Positions 1,094-48,929 of a stretch of DNA of 64,000 nt are shown in pieces. The DNA comes from Candidozyma auris (Eukaryota > Ascomycota > Pichiomycetes > Serinales > Metschnikowiaceae). The stretch is taken from contig NC_072812.1 in NCBI RefSeq assembly GCF_003013715.1, positions 620,001-684,000 of the forward strand, written 5' to 3'. Both the position numbers and the translations under genes were made by a program. A model generated the notes under the pieces. It saw nothing but the letters and a program-made list of their open reading frames with translations. It made no database searches and had not been told where the DNA came from. The first letter of the stretch is position 1; each line of letters starts with the position of its first letter.

Positions 1094-2316
1094 TTAAAAA
1101 CACAAAAAATCCTCCATATCTAGGGAGCTGTGCTCTAAAAAACCGTCCTCGATCTTTACATCAAACGAAAAGTTCTTGCTCATTGGGAGGTCGAATTCAT
1201 CGTCCAATTTACTACCAACGTTCGATGAGGATCCATGTACAACAGGCTCGACTGGTGCTGCTGACCAATTGGTTATGCGTGAGAATGAGTGCGTGAGTTT
1301 GTCCAAGATTGTTACTTCGATGCTATGAATCGGCACCCTACACTACGACCTGCTCTGAAAACTTCTCACGCATATTAACCAACTACATATGATCACCTGA
1401 CCATGTGTAGCTGATTAATATACGTCTTTTCTTCACAGATTGTAGGAGCCAACGAGAAGTTGGAAATGGTGCGACAAGCAGAGAACAGTCAAGGAAATGG
1501 TAGCTCGGCAACTCAAGCCACGACTAACCTTGGGAACAAAACCGCTGCTGGATTTTGCGCCAATACGTCGAAGGCTGATGTAGCTGGACCCATCATCGAA
1601 ACGTCGTCATGATGATTGGACATGTCTGGTGTGCTTGGCATAGAGCCGGATGTACTTGAGCCAGAGAAGGACTCTGGAGCTTCCGTCGATTCGCTAGTCT
1701 TCAATTGTAGATCGATAGGCGAATTAACTGGGGAATTTATAGACACGGGCAGGAGGTAGTTGAAAAAGCCCGAGGATGAGGTTGACAAGAGTTGCGGCAG
1801 AGACACCTCCGCCTTGACAACAACTTTTGACTGTGGAGTCACCGCCTCCGCAACATCATCGCTTTCTTCCTTTTTGACTTGAATTCTTGGAGTTCCCTCG
1901 ACATTAAAGTCGCATTGGGAGTCGAAATCGTCAATCTCCTCGTCGCCGAACAGAACTGAACCGCTCTTGGTGCCCCTCGTGGAGTTGTTGTTCAGGGACA
2001 TGTTCGCGTGTATTTGATTTTTTAATGACGTCAAGTCTTGGAGAGCAGGCAAGTTGAGCGAGTCAATCTTGTCTTGAGGGAGAAGGTTGCAAACAGCGGC
2101 AAAATTGTCGGACAATTTGGCTAAGTTGGCCTCCATCAGCAACACGTACGATTCGAGATACTCCACGTGTCTCCGCTTCTTTTCTCTCGACGCGTGGGCG
2201 GCTCTTCTGTTTCTGAGAATCCGCTCCACACGACGCTGTTCCTTCTCCTCTTGAGTTCTAGCTCTCTTGCGAGGTGGCAAGGACGACTTGAAGTTAGGGT
2301 CGACGGCGACAGTCAT
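1094..2316 (-). CDS. HAC1: bZIP transcription factor of the unfolded protein response, with Ire1-spliced intron
   Basis: Hac1 is the effector of the unfolded protein response, made when Ire1 cuts its mRNA. The bZIP region (about residues 17-67) has the family basic motif RNRRAAHASREKKRRHVEYLE. Unspliced, the frame from 2316 stops at 1513-1515 and gives 267 aa. I place a non-spliceosomal intron at 1547-1261 (287 nt). Both boundaries read CAG|CAGC inside 7-nt loops closed by 6-bp stems. Joining 2316-1548 to 1260-1094 gives 936 nt, a 311-aa protein whose last 11 residues replace nothing in frame: the whole tail after NPA is new (ending EDFLCF). The 287 nt are not a multiple of three, so splicing changes the frame. 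The start is the first ATG. I computed the intron length from the sequence; cleavage itself is inferred from the XBP1/HAC1 consensus. Confidence 0.9.
1261..1547 (-). other. HAC1 non-canonical (Ire1/tRNA ligase) intron
   Basis: On the minus strand the 5' site is AAAATC-CAGCAGC-GGTTTT and the 3' site is ATTGGT-CAGCAGC-ACCAGT. Each is a 6-bp stem (each with one wobble pair) around the loop CAGCAGC, which matches the C-N-G|C-N-G-N rule for Ire1 sites exactly. There is no GT..AG boundary and no TACTAAC box. The centre folds into a 28-bp stem-loop. Confidence 0.88.
1368..1425 (-). other. 28-bp stem-loop in the middle of the HAC1 intron
   Basis: The two 28-nt arms (1425-1398 and 1395-1368 on the minus strand) pair with four G-U wobbles and one C-A mismatch around a nominal 2-nt loop, so the last pairs are probably open. 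The stem lies 122 nt from the 5' site and 107 nt from the 3' site, so it would bring them closer in the folded RNA. Confidence 0.75.
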
Positions 2317-23071: not shown

Positions 23072-24271
23072 CTAAGCCCCGTAATACGTTCTGGCTCGTA
23101 TATATCCGAAGCCAAAGTTATACACATACACCAACAATACAGCACTAGCGAACACAGATAGCGTCTTGAAACTCAAGGGCTCAATGAGCGAGGTAATAAC
23201 CATTCCAATTGTCTGAGCCCCAAGGGAACTCACGTTCCCACCTCTTTCGGGATCTTGCTTCATACATTGCTCCCAGTAAGCACACCATTTTTCTAACGCC
23301 GGCACGATTTCGTCCGGGTGACATTTGTTTTCCTTGTAGCTACGCTCACAGGAGGCGATTTCCACGAGAAGGTTGTTGGCGTGTTGCGAAAGCTTGTGGG
23401 ACACGTCCTTGCGGATGGCTGCAACAATTGACCACACGATGTGTAATGCATAGGCAGACACGATGGTGTTGACGGCAAGTTGCAAGTATGATGAAAGCAC
23501 GTAGGCGTTTCTTTCCGCCGGAGAGGACTCTGAGTCCCATGGCAATGGCAATTCTCGAATGCGATGAGGTGGTGCCCTTGAGAGGTGCAACTGAGGCTCA
23601 GCTCTAAGCACATGCTGATCAACATCCATTGCTTGAGGTTTTGCACTGAGTTCAAGGTGTCCATATTCGTTCAGGCTTGGTACAGCATAATAGCTGGTGG
23701 TCTTTGCCCGATCTACACCGTAGTAGTGATGATGATGGACATGCATGGGAAAGGGCACGGGAAAGGTTCCGCGATAAACATTTGTTGTTTCCTGATGTAG
23801 GCCTGGTGTAGATGATTCTGGCTCTGGCTCCTCCACAGTGTACGACGGCTTTTGATATAAGTCCGACACTTTTCTCGAGCTGAAGGTGGTCTTATGGTTT
23901 TCTCGTAGAGCAGACTCTTGAGCAAGATCAAACGATAAGTCATGATCATCATGACTGTCTTTTCGCTGGTTCATCGCATACTGAGCCCCTAACGATGTAG
24001 GGCTAAGTAGACTTAAGACAAGCAGTCGCTCCTGAACCTCGTCTGATACGCTGTCCTCATCAACATTTGACATAGATACTTCTTCCGTCTTATTCCTTTG
24101 CTCGTTTCTATCTCTGCTTGAAATTTTCACCATGTTTTCGGTATCTCGATCTCCGTCGATACTGAAAGGCTCATGGGTACCAGGCTCGCTATCGATGTCC
24201 ATGAGATCATCATCGTGAGAATTGTCATCTTCTCGTAGGGAGAGCAGAAGCAAGACTCTATCAAGATCCAT
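23072..24271 (-). CDS. BRL1: nuclear envelope protein of the Brr6/Brl1 family
   Basis: Brl1 and Brr6 are paralogous integral proteins of the nuclear envelope and ER that act in nuclear pore assembly and lipid balance. The 399-aa product has an acidic disordered N-terminal half and the family domain at the C-terminus (about 245-395): two membrane segments (LSSYLQLAVNTIVSAYALHI and TLSVFASAVLLVYVYNFGF) flank a lumenal part with four cysteines (CERSYKENKC and CAYWEQC), which form two disulphides in the family. The long N-terminus favours Brl1 over the short Brr6. It is divergent from IPI1. Confidence 0.85.
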   Translation of the reverse strand: MDLDRVLLLLSLREDDNSHDDDLMDIDSEPGTHEPFSIDGDRDTENMVKISSRDRNEQRNKTEEVSMSNVDEDSVSDEVQERLLVLSLLSPTSLGAQYAMNQRKDSHDDHDLSFDLAQESALRENHKTTFSSRKVSDLYQKPSYTVEEPEPESSTPGLHQETTNVYRGTFPVPFPMHVHHHHYYGVDRAKTTSYYAVPSLNEYGHLELSAKPQAMDVDQHVLRAEPQLHLSRAPPHRIRELPLPWDSESSPAERNAYVLSSYLQLAVNTIVSAYALHIVWSIVAAIRKDVSHKLSQHANNLLVEIASCERSYKENKCHPDEIVPALEKWCAYWEQCMKQDPERGGNVSSLGAQTIGMVITSLIEPLSFKTLSVFASAVLLVYVYNFGFGYIRARTYYGA

Positions 24272-32259: not shown

Positions 32260-33549
32260 ATGAGTGAAGATCAAGACCCTCTTTTGGCCGGTTTGCAGGG
32301 CGAGGATGGTCGTGACCAAAGCCAGGGAACCAATGGTGATTCAAGCACTTCGCAACCCGAGCAGCGTCAGCCAACTCCAGCAGAACAAGAGAGACATAAA
32401 GTACTTACCAACTTCAGAGAGAAGTTGATCGAGCATCGAAAATGGGATGCACGTCTTAAAGAGTTGAGAATGAGTATGCGAGATTTGGAGAAGACGTATG
32501 ACAAGACAGAAAATGATATCAAGGCATTGCAATCGGTCGGTCAGATTGTAGGTGAGGTCTTGAAGCAGTTGACTGACGAGACTTTCATCGTGAAGGCTTC
32601 TAGCGGGCCCCGTTACATTGTGGGATGTCGTAACACGATTAAGAAGGAGAATTTAAAGAATGGTGTCAGAGTCTCTTTGGATATGACGACGTTAACTATA
32701 ATGCGTATCTTGCCAAGAGAGGTTGACCCATTGGTCTACAATATGACTACTTTCGAGCCGGGCGAAATCTCGTTCAATGGTATCGGAGGCCTTACAGAGC
32801 AGATTCGTGAATTGAGAGAGGTGATCGAGTTGCCTTTGAAAAATCCGGAGTTGTTCACTCGTGTAGGCATCAAGCCGCCTAAAGGTGTACTTTTATACGG
32901 ACCTCCAGGTACTGGTAAAACGCTATTAGCCAAAGCTGTTGCAGCTACAATCGGAGCCAACTTCATTTTCTCGCCAGCGTCTGCGATTGTTGACAAATAC
33001 ATCGGTGAATCTGCGCGGTTGATCAGAGAGATGTTCTCGTACGCCAAAGAGCACGAGCCATGTATCATCTTCATGGATGAGATTGATGCCATTGGTGGAA
33101 GAAGATTTAGTGAGGGTACCTCTGCCGATCGTGAGATTCAGAGAACCTTGATGGAGTTATTGAATCAAATGGATGGTTTTGACACTTTAGGGCAAACAAA
33201 GGTCATTATGGCAACCAACAGACCTGACACATTGGATCCTGCATTACTAAGAGCCGGAAGATTGGACAGAAAGATTGAGATTGGGTTGCCTAATGAAGCT
33301 GGCAGATTGGAGATCTTCAAGATTCACACCGCTAAGGTCGCTAAACAAGGTGAGTTCGACTTCGAGGCCGCCGTCAAGATGACGGACGGTTTCAACGGTG
33401 CTGATATTCGAAACGTCGTTACTGAAGCGGGTTTTTTTGCCATCAGAGATGAGAGGGACTACATCGTACAAAACGACTTGATGAAGGCCGTTAGAAAAGT
33501 TGCTGACGTCAAGAAACTAGAGGGCAACTTGGATTACGAAAAGTTATAG
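32260..33549 (+). CDS. RPT4: 26S proteasome regulatory ATPase Rpt4
   Basis: One of the six AAA ATPases at the base of the 19S particle, which unfold substrates. In 429 aa it shows a coiled-coil start, the OB domain segment ([14 protein letters not shown] and [17 protein letters not shown]), Walker A GPPGTGKT at 214-221, Walker B IIFMDEID at 269-276 and the [50 protein letters not shown] is the Rpt4 signature rather than another Rpt. The C-terminus YEKL lacks the HbYX gate-opening motif, as expected for Rpt4. I see no classical Rpn4 (PACE) element upstream. Confidence 0.95.
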
Positions 33550-45785: not shown

Positions 45786-47555
45786 TTAATGGTGGAACAA
45801 ACGGATAGGGTTCTCAACGTACACCATGTTGTAAGAGTCCGCGGCAGAAAATACTGCCTTGTCCATTACAGAACCAGAAGGAGCAGCGACGAACTTCACA
45901 CCCGATCTGGCGGCTCTGTGCACATTGTCTGGGAATGGGAAGAAAGCGTCTGATGACAAAGCGACACCGTTTAGCTTGTTCATCCACTCCTGTCTCTCTT
46001 CCTCGGTCAATGGGGCAGGAACCTCGGCGAACTTGGACTCGTACTCGCTCTTTTCAGGTTCACTCTTAGGAATCTGATTGGTGACGTACAAGTCGATAGC
46101 GTTGGACTTGTCCGGTCTCTTGACACCCTTGGCCCACTGAAAGCCCAACACTTTAGGGTGCTGTCTCAACCACCAGTTGTCGGCCTTCTCACCAGCCAAT
46201 CTGGTGCAGTGAATTCTCGACTGCTGACCAGCACCCAAACCAATCACCATACCGTTTTTAGCATAGCAGACAGAGTTGGATTGAGTGTACTTCAATGCAA
46301 TTGTAGCAACAGTCAAGTCAACTGTGCCTTGCTCAGTCAATTCCTTGTTTGAGGAGACAATCTCCTTGAAGGAGGAACCCTTGATGATTGCGTCATTTCT
46401 CTTCTGTTGCAAAGTTATACCATATACTTGTCTAGACTCAATAGCATCGGGAGTGAAGTTTGGATCAATCTGCAAGATACAGTATTTACCACCCTTCTTT
46501 TTCCTTAAGATTTCCAAAGCCTCCTCAGAATAGCCTGGAGCAATGACACCGTCGGAGACCTCTTTGGAAATAATTTGGGCAGTTGGGAGGTCAACGATGT
46601 TCGACAACGCAATCCAGTCTCCAAAAGAAGACATTCTGTCGGCTCCTCTGGCTCTGGCGTAAGCGTTGGCCAATGGAGACAAGTTCTCAATGTCCTCGAC
46701 GAAGTAAATCTTTTTCTCAACGTCGGAAAGAGGCAAACCAACTGCAGCACCAGCAGGAGACACGTGCTTGAAAGAAGCGGCAGCCGGCAAGTTCAAGGAT
46801 GCAGACAACTCCTTAACTAAGGGCCATGAGTTCAAAGCGTCCAACAAATTGATGTAACCAGGAGAGCCAGACAAAACCTTGAATGGCAATTCGCCCTGAG
46901 GAACGAAAGCCTGGGCAGGCTTCTGATGGGGGTTGGCACCATATCTCAAGGGCAATTGAGAAACGTTCTCAGAGTACTGCTTTCTGAAGAAATCAGAAAT
47001 GGCAACATCATAATCAGCAGTGTGCTCAAAAGCCTTGAGAGCCAATCTGTTTCTGGTATCAGCAGAAATTTCACCGGACTTTAATTCCTCCAAAAAGACA
47101 GGGTAGTCTTTAGGATCAGATAAGATGGTCACTCTAGCGTGGTTTTTGGCGGCGGCTCTCAATAAAGTGACACCACCAATGTCAATTTCCTCAACTGCTT
47201 CATCAACAGTGACGGCGACCTTGGAAACGGTCTCCTTGAATGGGTACAAGTTGCAGACAACGTAGTCAACCTTCTCAATACCCTGAGCGGCCAAGTCAGC
47301 TTCGTCGTTTTCCAAGTTTCTGGCCAAAATACCACCGTGTACGGCTGGGTGCAAAGTCTTCACTCTACCCCCCAACATCTCAGGAGCATGGGTGATGGAG
47401 GAAACGTCTTCAACAGGGAAACCTGCCTCGCGAACCAACTTGGCAGTTCCACCAGAGGCCAAAATTCTGACATTGGCAGCGGTCAAACCTTTGGCCAAGT
47501 CCAACAATCCGGTTTTATCGTAAACCGACAAAATGGCAGTTTTTGAATGAGCCAT
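45786..47555 (-). CDS. ADE17: bifunctional AICAR transformylase / IMP cyclohydrolase
   Basis: Last two steps of IMP synthesis: formyl transfer to AICAR and ring closure. At 589 aa it matches yeast Ade16/Ade17 (about 592). The N-terminal cyclohydrolase domain ([49 protein letters not shown]) and the C-terminal transformylase ([37 protein letters not shown]) carry their signatures. The frame runs upstream to 47621 but [14 protein letters not shown] at 47555 is the family start. Two Bas1-type sites lie 311 bp upstream. The symbol could be ADE16; many Candida have one gene only. Confidence 0.94.
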
Positions 47556-48314: not shown

Positions 48315-48929
48315 TTAAGATCTGTATCTCCACAAGGACAAAGTGTTGTGCTTCTTCCAAGTGTGACGACGGCCAGCCTTGGTGTTGTTGTACAAGTGAC
48401 CCTTGGCAATACCTCTGGACTTCTTGCCAGCGGAAGTAAGACCTCTAGCTTCTCTGTGCTTGTGAACTGGGTTAACAATCCAGTTGTATCTTGGGTCTCT
48501 TCTGATGGCATTGTGAGATGGGTCCACACAAATGACCTCGTAGTACTTGTAGGTGGAGTCCTGGTTCACCCAGTAAGAATTCAACACTCTCAAGTTGGCA
48601 GCTCTTCTACCAACTCTTTCCTCGGCGGTCACTCTCAAGGACTTCTGGTACTTGAGCTGAGTGACACCCTGGTTGGTTGGCTTACCGTAGGTGGCTCCCT
48701 TTGGCACAGGTCTCTTTCTACCACCTCTTCTAACTCTGATACGGAAGATGACGAAACCCTGCTTGGCCTTGTAACCCAATCTTCTGGCCTTGTCTGGTCT
48801 AGATGGTCTGGAAGCTCTGTGGATGACGTTTCTCTGTCTGTACTCCCAACATCTGACTCTCAACAAGAATCTAGCGACATCAGACTGCTTTTTTCTCTGC
48901 AATTCTTCCAAGTATTTGTAAGCACCCAT
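48315..48929 (-). CDS. RPL15: 60S ribosomal protein eL15
   Basis: Universal eukaryotic large-subunit protein, 204 aa (yeast 204). It runs from [20 protein letters not shown] to [11 protein letters not shown] and is intact, with the [13 protein letters not shown] and [19 protein letters not shown] motifs. There is no intron. Codon use is strongly biased, with no in-frame CUG that I noted. A poly-A run on the coding strand (about 48971-48984) lies just upstream. The Cbf1-type inverted pair and the Tbf1-type site 100-160 bp upstream match a Candida ribosomal-protein promoter. Confidence 0.97.

Follow-up and report, generated by a model that had tools for sequence, protein, structure and literature searches.

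A probable Ire1-type intron in HAC1 of a Candidozyma yeast, with a candidate conserved RNA element and a central hairpin inside it

In a CUG-Ser yeast belonging to the Candidozyma group, HAC1 almost certainly carries an Ire1-type intron that is spliced by the mechanism set out below. The gene lies on the minus strand of a 64-kb stretch of DNA, here called the window. Judged from its sequence, the intron would very probably be excised by Ire1, as in related yeasts, and the interpretation of the initial annotation as an Ire1-type intron is supported. Of greater importance than the presence of this intron, however, are a conserved element and a central hairpin within it, which appear to be shared with other yeasts of the clade. 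The gene and its splice-site hairpins are laid out as follows:

2316-1548, minus strand: HAC1 exon 1, with the bZIP domain inside (256 codons plus 1 nt)
1547-1261, minus strand: predicted Ire1-type intron of HAC1, frame-shifting (287 nt; 287 mod 3 = 2)
1547-1513, minus strand: intron-encoded end of the unspliced HAC1 protein (...AVLFPRLVVA), with stop codon
1260-1094, minus strand: HAC1 exon 2, coding part with stop codon (tail end LDMEDFLCF)
1558-1536, minus strand: 5′ splice-site hairpin; loop CAGCAGC 1550-1544, stem 1558-1551/1543-1536 (pairing probability 0.72-0.95)
1269-1251, minus strand: 3′ splice-site hairpin; loop CAGCAGC 1263-1257, stem 1269-1264/1256-1251 (outer two pairs weak)

The unspliced frame runs from an ATG over positions 2316-1513 of the minus strand and encodes, in 267 codons, a bZIP protein with a Pfam bZIP_2 match at residues 25-71 (E 2.8e-07). 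In this HAC1 orthologue the intron interrupts the coding region close to its 3′ end, and exon 1 ends inside a codon. Excision of 1547-1261 in silico produced a frame of 311 codons with the C-terminus LDMEDFLCF. The two forms have 258 residues in common and differ in their private ends, of 9 residues in the unspliced and 53 in the spliced form. Translation of both frames confirmed the earlier observation of the HAC1 intron: cuts after each CAG indeed remove exactly 287 nt, the coordinates, the protein sizes of 267 and 311 aa and the end EDFLCF had been given correctly, and the claim that the intron shifts the frame was right. The intron sequence has a single match in the genome, which is itself.

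Ire1 splice loops follow a 7-nt consensus, CNG/CNGN (the slash marking the cut), displayed on a stem. The match of both intron boundaries to this consensus, already proposed from the sequence, was borne out by the stems: the 5′ loop is closed by 8 contiguous pairs (6 of them Watson-Crick) and the 3′ loop by 6 (5 Watson-Crick). When the 1,467-nt gene strand was shuffled with its dinucleotides preserved, two such hairpins of at least 6 pairs were found in 0 of 3,000 shuffles and at least one in 39 (mean 0.013). The bare 7-mer CAGCAGC is not rare, with 7 copies in the window against 7.9 expected. CNGCNGN loops on at least 5 contiguous pairs occur three times on both strands of the 64 kb; two of these are the HAC1 splice sites, and the third lies outside HAC1, at 23515 on the plus strand. 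In context, the 3′ hairpin had probabilities of 0.80-0.94 for its inner four pairs and of about 0.01 for the outer two. Folded alone, the 5′ hairpin was equalled by 7 of 200 shuffles and the 3′ hairpin by 133 of 200, the latter thus showing no stability beyond shuffles. Because the two loops are identical, eight cut phases lead to one and the same spliced product, and the joined mRNA sequence cannot place the cut within CAGCAGC. Accordingly, the suggestion of a cut after CAG holds for the removal of 287 nt, but a junction CAG/CAGC would be no proof of the cut position.

HAC1 relatives were taken as the best 120 of 267 homologues found. A search of viral contigs for their DNA gave no match; they were read as proteins and back-translated, so that the nucleotide comparison covers their coding tails only. 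At least eight of these relatives (P0002, P0028, P0029, P0030, P0042, P0043, P0065 and P0077) share a C-terminal motif, L-[DT]-[IL]-[DE]-[EQ]-F-L-x-[FL], to which LDMEDFLCF corresponds in the window. The tail pattern was written after some relatives had been inspected and the eight were picked by this motif, so spliced forms that lack it are missed by the count. Seven of the eight have a junction at the matching position, which reads QN[SP]A/AP or, in P0077, QSSA/V; P0042 has no visible junction. The nearest of them, P0002, is 52% identical to the 54-residue exon-2 tail over 54 columns (E 1e-12 for that single comparison), and beyond P0002 the likeness is mainly that of the 9-residue motif (P0029: E 0.059). 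The source tag of P0002, 'lgn', presumably denotes the Logan assemblies; this entry may represent either a spliced transcript or a lost intron, and in both cases it would support the exon-2 frame. The window has 2,494 stop-to-stop frames with 15 or more codons, and exon 2 is the only one of them that has the tail pattern at its end. Once the intron is removed, the frame thus continues into a conserved C-terminal tail.

In the genome (12.25 Mb in 7 contigs), the IRE1 RNase domain has one match. It lies in a frame of 1,164 aa that also has a kinase domain and that, by reading, begins with a signal-like sequence and contains a hydrophobic stretch. The tRNA-ligase domain PF08302, the sole ligase domain searched, likewise had one genome match (E 3e-23). 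An Ire1 kinase and RNase and a tRNA-ligase domain are found alongside intron boundaries that are not spliceosomal. Splicing would very probably proceed as follows. The unspliced mRNA would yield at most the 267-aa protein, which ends inside the intron after its nine private residues. Upon ER stress, Ire1 would cluster and cleave both 7-nt loops, by analogy after the third base, and the tRNA ligase would then join the HAC1 exons. The resulting shift of frame would replace the short tail by 53 residues with an acidic-hydrophobic end, LDMEDFLCF, which is probably part of an activation domain. The cleavage, the ligation and their dependence on stress, like the activating function of the tail, are what we infer from the hairpins, frames and domains described here.

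Two other accounts of the intron were weighed against Ire1 splicing. The hairpins could be relics in a HAC1 that stays unspliced, as is reported for C. glabrata in the portions covered of PMC6116095, and it fits this idea that the nearest database entry among the matches listed, P0001, with one residue different, is an unspliced form; no spliced form as near as P0001 is present among these matches (best 120 of 267). According to the same portions, however, the C. glabrata gene apparently lacks consensus sites, whereas here the loops at both boundaries match the consensus in full and have the same sequence, and exon 2 has retained its reading frame and end motif, which makes this account very improbable. 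Removal by the spliceosome has a probability close to nil. A single sequence resembling a 5′ splice site, GTTAGT, does occur at intron position 20, but none of the eight product-equivalent phases runs from GT to AG, TACTAAC is absent and, by arithmetic, excision from GTTAGT to the same 3′ end would take out 268 nt and place exon 2 in another frame.

Excision by Ire1 being the preferred reading, we turn to the inside of the intron, where the following features were distinguished:

1529-1511, minus strand: closing stem of the intron, 5′ side, which also codes for the end of the unspliced tail; pairs with 1290-1271
1290-1271, minus strand: closing stem of the intron, 3′ side; pairs with 1529-1511
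1490-1473, minus strand: conserved intron element GACUGUUCUCUGCUUGUC, that is GACTGTTCTCTGCTTGTC, with core CTCTGCTTGTC (18 nt, from intron position 58 on)
1425-1368, minus strand: central hairpin; 20 bp 1425-1406/1387-1368 plus 6 bp 1404-1399/1394-1389

The intron with its flanks folds to -124.5 kcal/mol, compared with -96.7 for shuffled sequences (z -5.2), and beats 100 of 100 shuffles. The closing stem has pairing probabilities of 0.98-1.0, with 0.51 for the last pair, and the 20-bp central stem has probabilities of 0.97-1.0. The closing stem and the central hairpin would keep the two splice hairpins close together.

Unspliced relatives without an early stop gave access to the intron of other yeasts, their predicted proteins running on into it; the intron stop codon is lost in P0003, P0006, P0013, P0015, P0016, P0017, P0019 and P0023. 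The stretches DCSLLV, TVLCLS and LFSAC in these read-through tails turned out to be the three reading frames of GACTGTTCTCTGCTTGTC. Since a single element is read in three frames, it is very probably kept as nucleotides and not as protein. Compared with 60 tails of at least 14 aa, the 18-nt element was compatible with 9 at 0 mismatches and with 12 at no more than one, while for 100 shuffled 18-mers these counts averaged 0.0 and 0.02 and never exceeded 0 and 1. It also scored top among 18-mers taken every 3 nt of the intron, the near rivals all overlapping it. For the core, the comparison comprised 62 tails, with five proteins added from the best 120 of 467 matches and with serine allowed as CTG, as P0094 needs. 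The 11-nt core fits 17 of these 62 tails and, among tails of at least 24 aa, 16 of 32; shuffled versions fitted 0.85 tails on average and 7 at most. Because the element was chosen after the data had been seen and several carriers are kin (P0013/15/16, P0047/48, P0081/83 and P0103/104), the independent cases are fewer than 17. Of the 16 long tails that lack the core, P0017 and P0060 carry near forms, which depart from the 18-mer by 2 and 3 mismatches, respectively; the others are 12 tails that are C. parapsilosis-like by sequence and have a type of their own, plus P0079 and P0120. In the genome, the element has one exact place and one further place with two mismatches, the latter count being matched by a backward control pattern. 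With the intron being structured, it seems likelier that the element acts as RNA than as DNA.

For the central hairpin, the best codon-degenerate stem was sought in each read-through tail of at least 64 aa (n = 6) and compared with 200 shuffled peptides; as codon degeneracy leaves letters open, the pairs counted are compatible ones rather than observed ones. The best stem fell at the corresponding place in five of the six tails (P0003, P0017, P0023, P0047 and P0048), and P0103, which also has a long tail, had no stem at that place in this search. Shuffled peptides did as well in 0 of 200 cases for both P0017 and P0023, in 34 for P0003, in 45 for P0047 and in 79 for P0048. Taken singly, the strength of the stem is thus significant in P0017 and P0023 only. 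In each of the five relatives, all of the first 12 pairs of this stem can be Watson-Crick pairs, whereas sliding the register by 1 to 4 leaves no more than 9. Over 18 pairs with G-U allowed, the pairs changed on both sides relative to the window numbered 2 in P0003, 3 in P0023, 4 in P0047 and 5 in P0048, and those unable to form 2, 1, 1 and 0, respectively; in P0017, 1 pair was changed on both sides over 12 pairs. The central hairpin thus appears to fit the tails of five relatives with compensating changes. A perfect 12-nt inverted repeat (1274-1285/1363-1374) overlaps the base of this hairpin, which could instead pair with the 3′ end of the intron. A comparison with Rfam returned no match in the window at the gathering score, and none in 900-2700 at E <= 1.

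On balance, we favor the view, with rather better than even confidence, that HAC1 introns of the CUG-Ser1 clade contain an undescribed conserved RNA module, in which the 18-nt element (core CUCUGCUUGUC, starting about 30 to 90 nt past the 5′ cut in the relatives) is followed by the covarying central hairpin, and that the element may be the clade's signal for silencing or Ire1 targeting, via a protein or a tertiary contact. It is a candidate for these roles because 5′UTR pairing is undetectable here. We consider it most likely, with low confidence, that it binds a protein or makes a tertiary contact and in this way acts in silencing or in Ire1 targeting. No description of the element or the central hairpin was found in the literature searched, and among the titles listed none deals with an element of this kind in HAC1; Hooks and Griffiths-Jones 2011, the most relevant work, was outside that search.

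Alternatively, what is conserved could be protein: the unspliced form would then have a degron-like tail, for which S. cerevisiae offers a precedent in a 10-residue intron-encoded degron (PMC5114014, in part). The unspliced tails are indeed alike within groups, ending in ILSPR[VL]LMV in the Clavispora-like and comprising 31-32 residues in the C. parapsilosis-like proteins. We nevertheless regard this as unlikely: the 11-nt core is read as SLLV, LCLS and FSAC in three frames, the element lies past the stop codon in the window, and P0003 runs on where its close relative P0004 stops. Conservation of the element as nucleotides therefore remains the reading that we prefer.

The unspliced tails themselves fall into distinct types. 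In the C. parapsilosis-like P0087, P0089, P0091, P0092, P0095-P0097, P0099-P0102 and P0105, the intron encodes a tail of the type ILSIEEEKQQP...AISV that is alike across species and looks as if it is kept as protein. The Clavispora-like P0010, P0011, P0020-P0022, P0025 and P0026 end, when unspliced, in [VE]IL[SH]P[RK][VL]LMV and then stop at once, and this end is a possible clade-specific degron. The S. cerevisiae degron is poorly kept in other yeasts, according to the part covered of Tehfe et al. 2021 (PMC8002603). Protein and RNA constraint on the unspliced tail are inseparable from proteins alone, since in the window its codons also form the closing stem.

In S. cerevisiae and K. lactis, pairing of the HAC1 intron with the 5′UTR serves as an attenuator (PMC6116095, in part). 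In contrast to these species, neither the intron nor the element paired with the presumed 5′UTR beyond shuffles here: 74 of 200 and 130 of 200 shuffles were as good for the intron, 54 of 100 paired as well as the element alone, and 172 of 200 were as good when the 1,200 nt upstream were taken as the partner. Pairing of the S. cerevisiae type was therefore rejected. When partners for the element were sought in other parts of the transcript, shuffles did as well in 8 of 100 cases in exon 1, 62 in the preceding and 21 in the following part of the intron, 50 in exon 2 and 14 in the 3′UTR, and its contiguous matches were equalled by 72 of 200 in exon 1, 69 in the rest of the intron and 72 on the 3′ side; none of these was taken as real. 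Attenuated systems also have a bipartite element in the HAC1 3′UTR (PMC6116095 and PMC2905327, both in part).

Ire1-type HAC1 introns occur throughout the CTG-Ser1 species examined by Iracane et al. 2018 (PMC6222058, portions covered), with lengths of 19-848 nt or, apart from C. albicans, of 152 to about 848 nt; that of C. parapsilosis has 626 nt and that of C. lusitaniae is of medium length. The remark that the present intron is far longer than the 19 nt of C. albicans is thus correct as to length, but this is no surprise given the other species of the clade. Outside it, introns of 252 nt in S. cerevisiae (PMC6222058 and PMC6116095, in part) and 322 nt in K. phaffii (PMC2905327, in part) are reported. 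Hence, 287 nt is an ordinary length and the kind of intron is already known in the clade, the internal element and hairpin being less ordinary. Gene, position, paired hairpins and C-terminal frame switch are as in the CTG-Ser1 introns of PMC6222058, the portions covered of which name neither this species nor an internal element. The medium length, the Ire1 hairpins and the early intron stop are shared with S. cerevisiae and K. lactis (PMC6116095, in part), and two seven-base loops and a new C-terminal tail after splicing with K. phaffii, where the tail has 18 aa as opposed to the 53 private residues here (PMC2905327, in part). C. albicans HAC1 belongs to the same CTG-Ser1 clade, but its 19-nt intron is too short for a closing stem, element and central hairpin. 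A report on the HAC1 intron of C. auris was not found by title among the matches listed in the literature searched.

As regards the host, the CTG codon is absent from three genes named by reading, RPT4-like (32260-33549), ADE17-like (45786-47555) and RPL15-like (48315-48929), and is used 2 to 10 times in each of ten other genes counted. The nearest named relative among the matches listed is Candidozyma duobushaemuli, and both this kinship and the CTG usage fit a CUG-Ser yeast. Convergent with HAC1, positions 1-642 of the plus strand encode the last part of a protein which, judged by reading, is similar to a DNA polymerase that has a cysteine-rich tail. An rDNA copy (G000:C5, around 1004483) has an ITS2 very near the C. 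auris oligonucleotides; the deviations are small, and one falls within the 5.8S region. By eye, this copy has one mismatch each to the published C. auris CauF, V2424F and probe oligonucleotides, three to CauR and none to V2426, and no exact CauR site occurs anywhere in the genome. These differences may mean that the copy has degenerated, that the assembly is wrong here or that the yeast is a sister species; it would be C. auris or a near sister.

The intron indicates that the standard Ire1-HAC1 switch runs the unfolded protein response in this Candidozyma yeast. The module, if true, would be at odds with the published picture of an intron conserved at its splice sites only, and the element, common to several lineages, would be a specific candidate for silencing unspliced HAC1 where no pairing with the 5′UTR is detectable.
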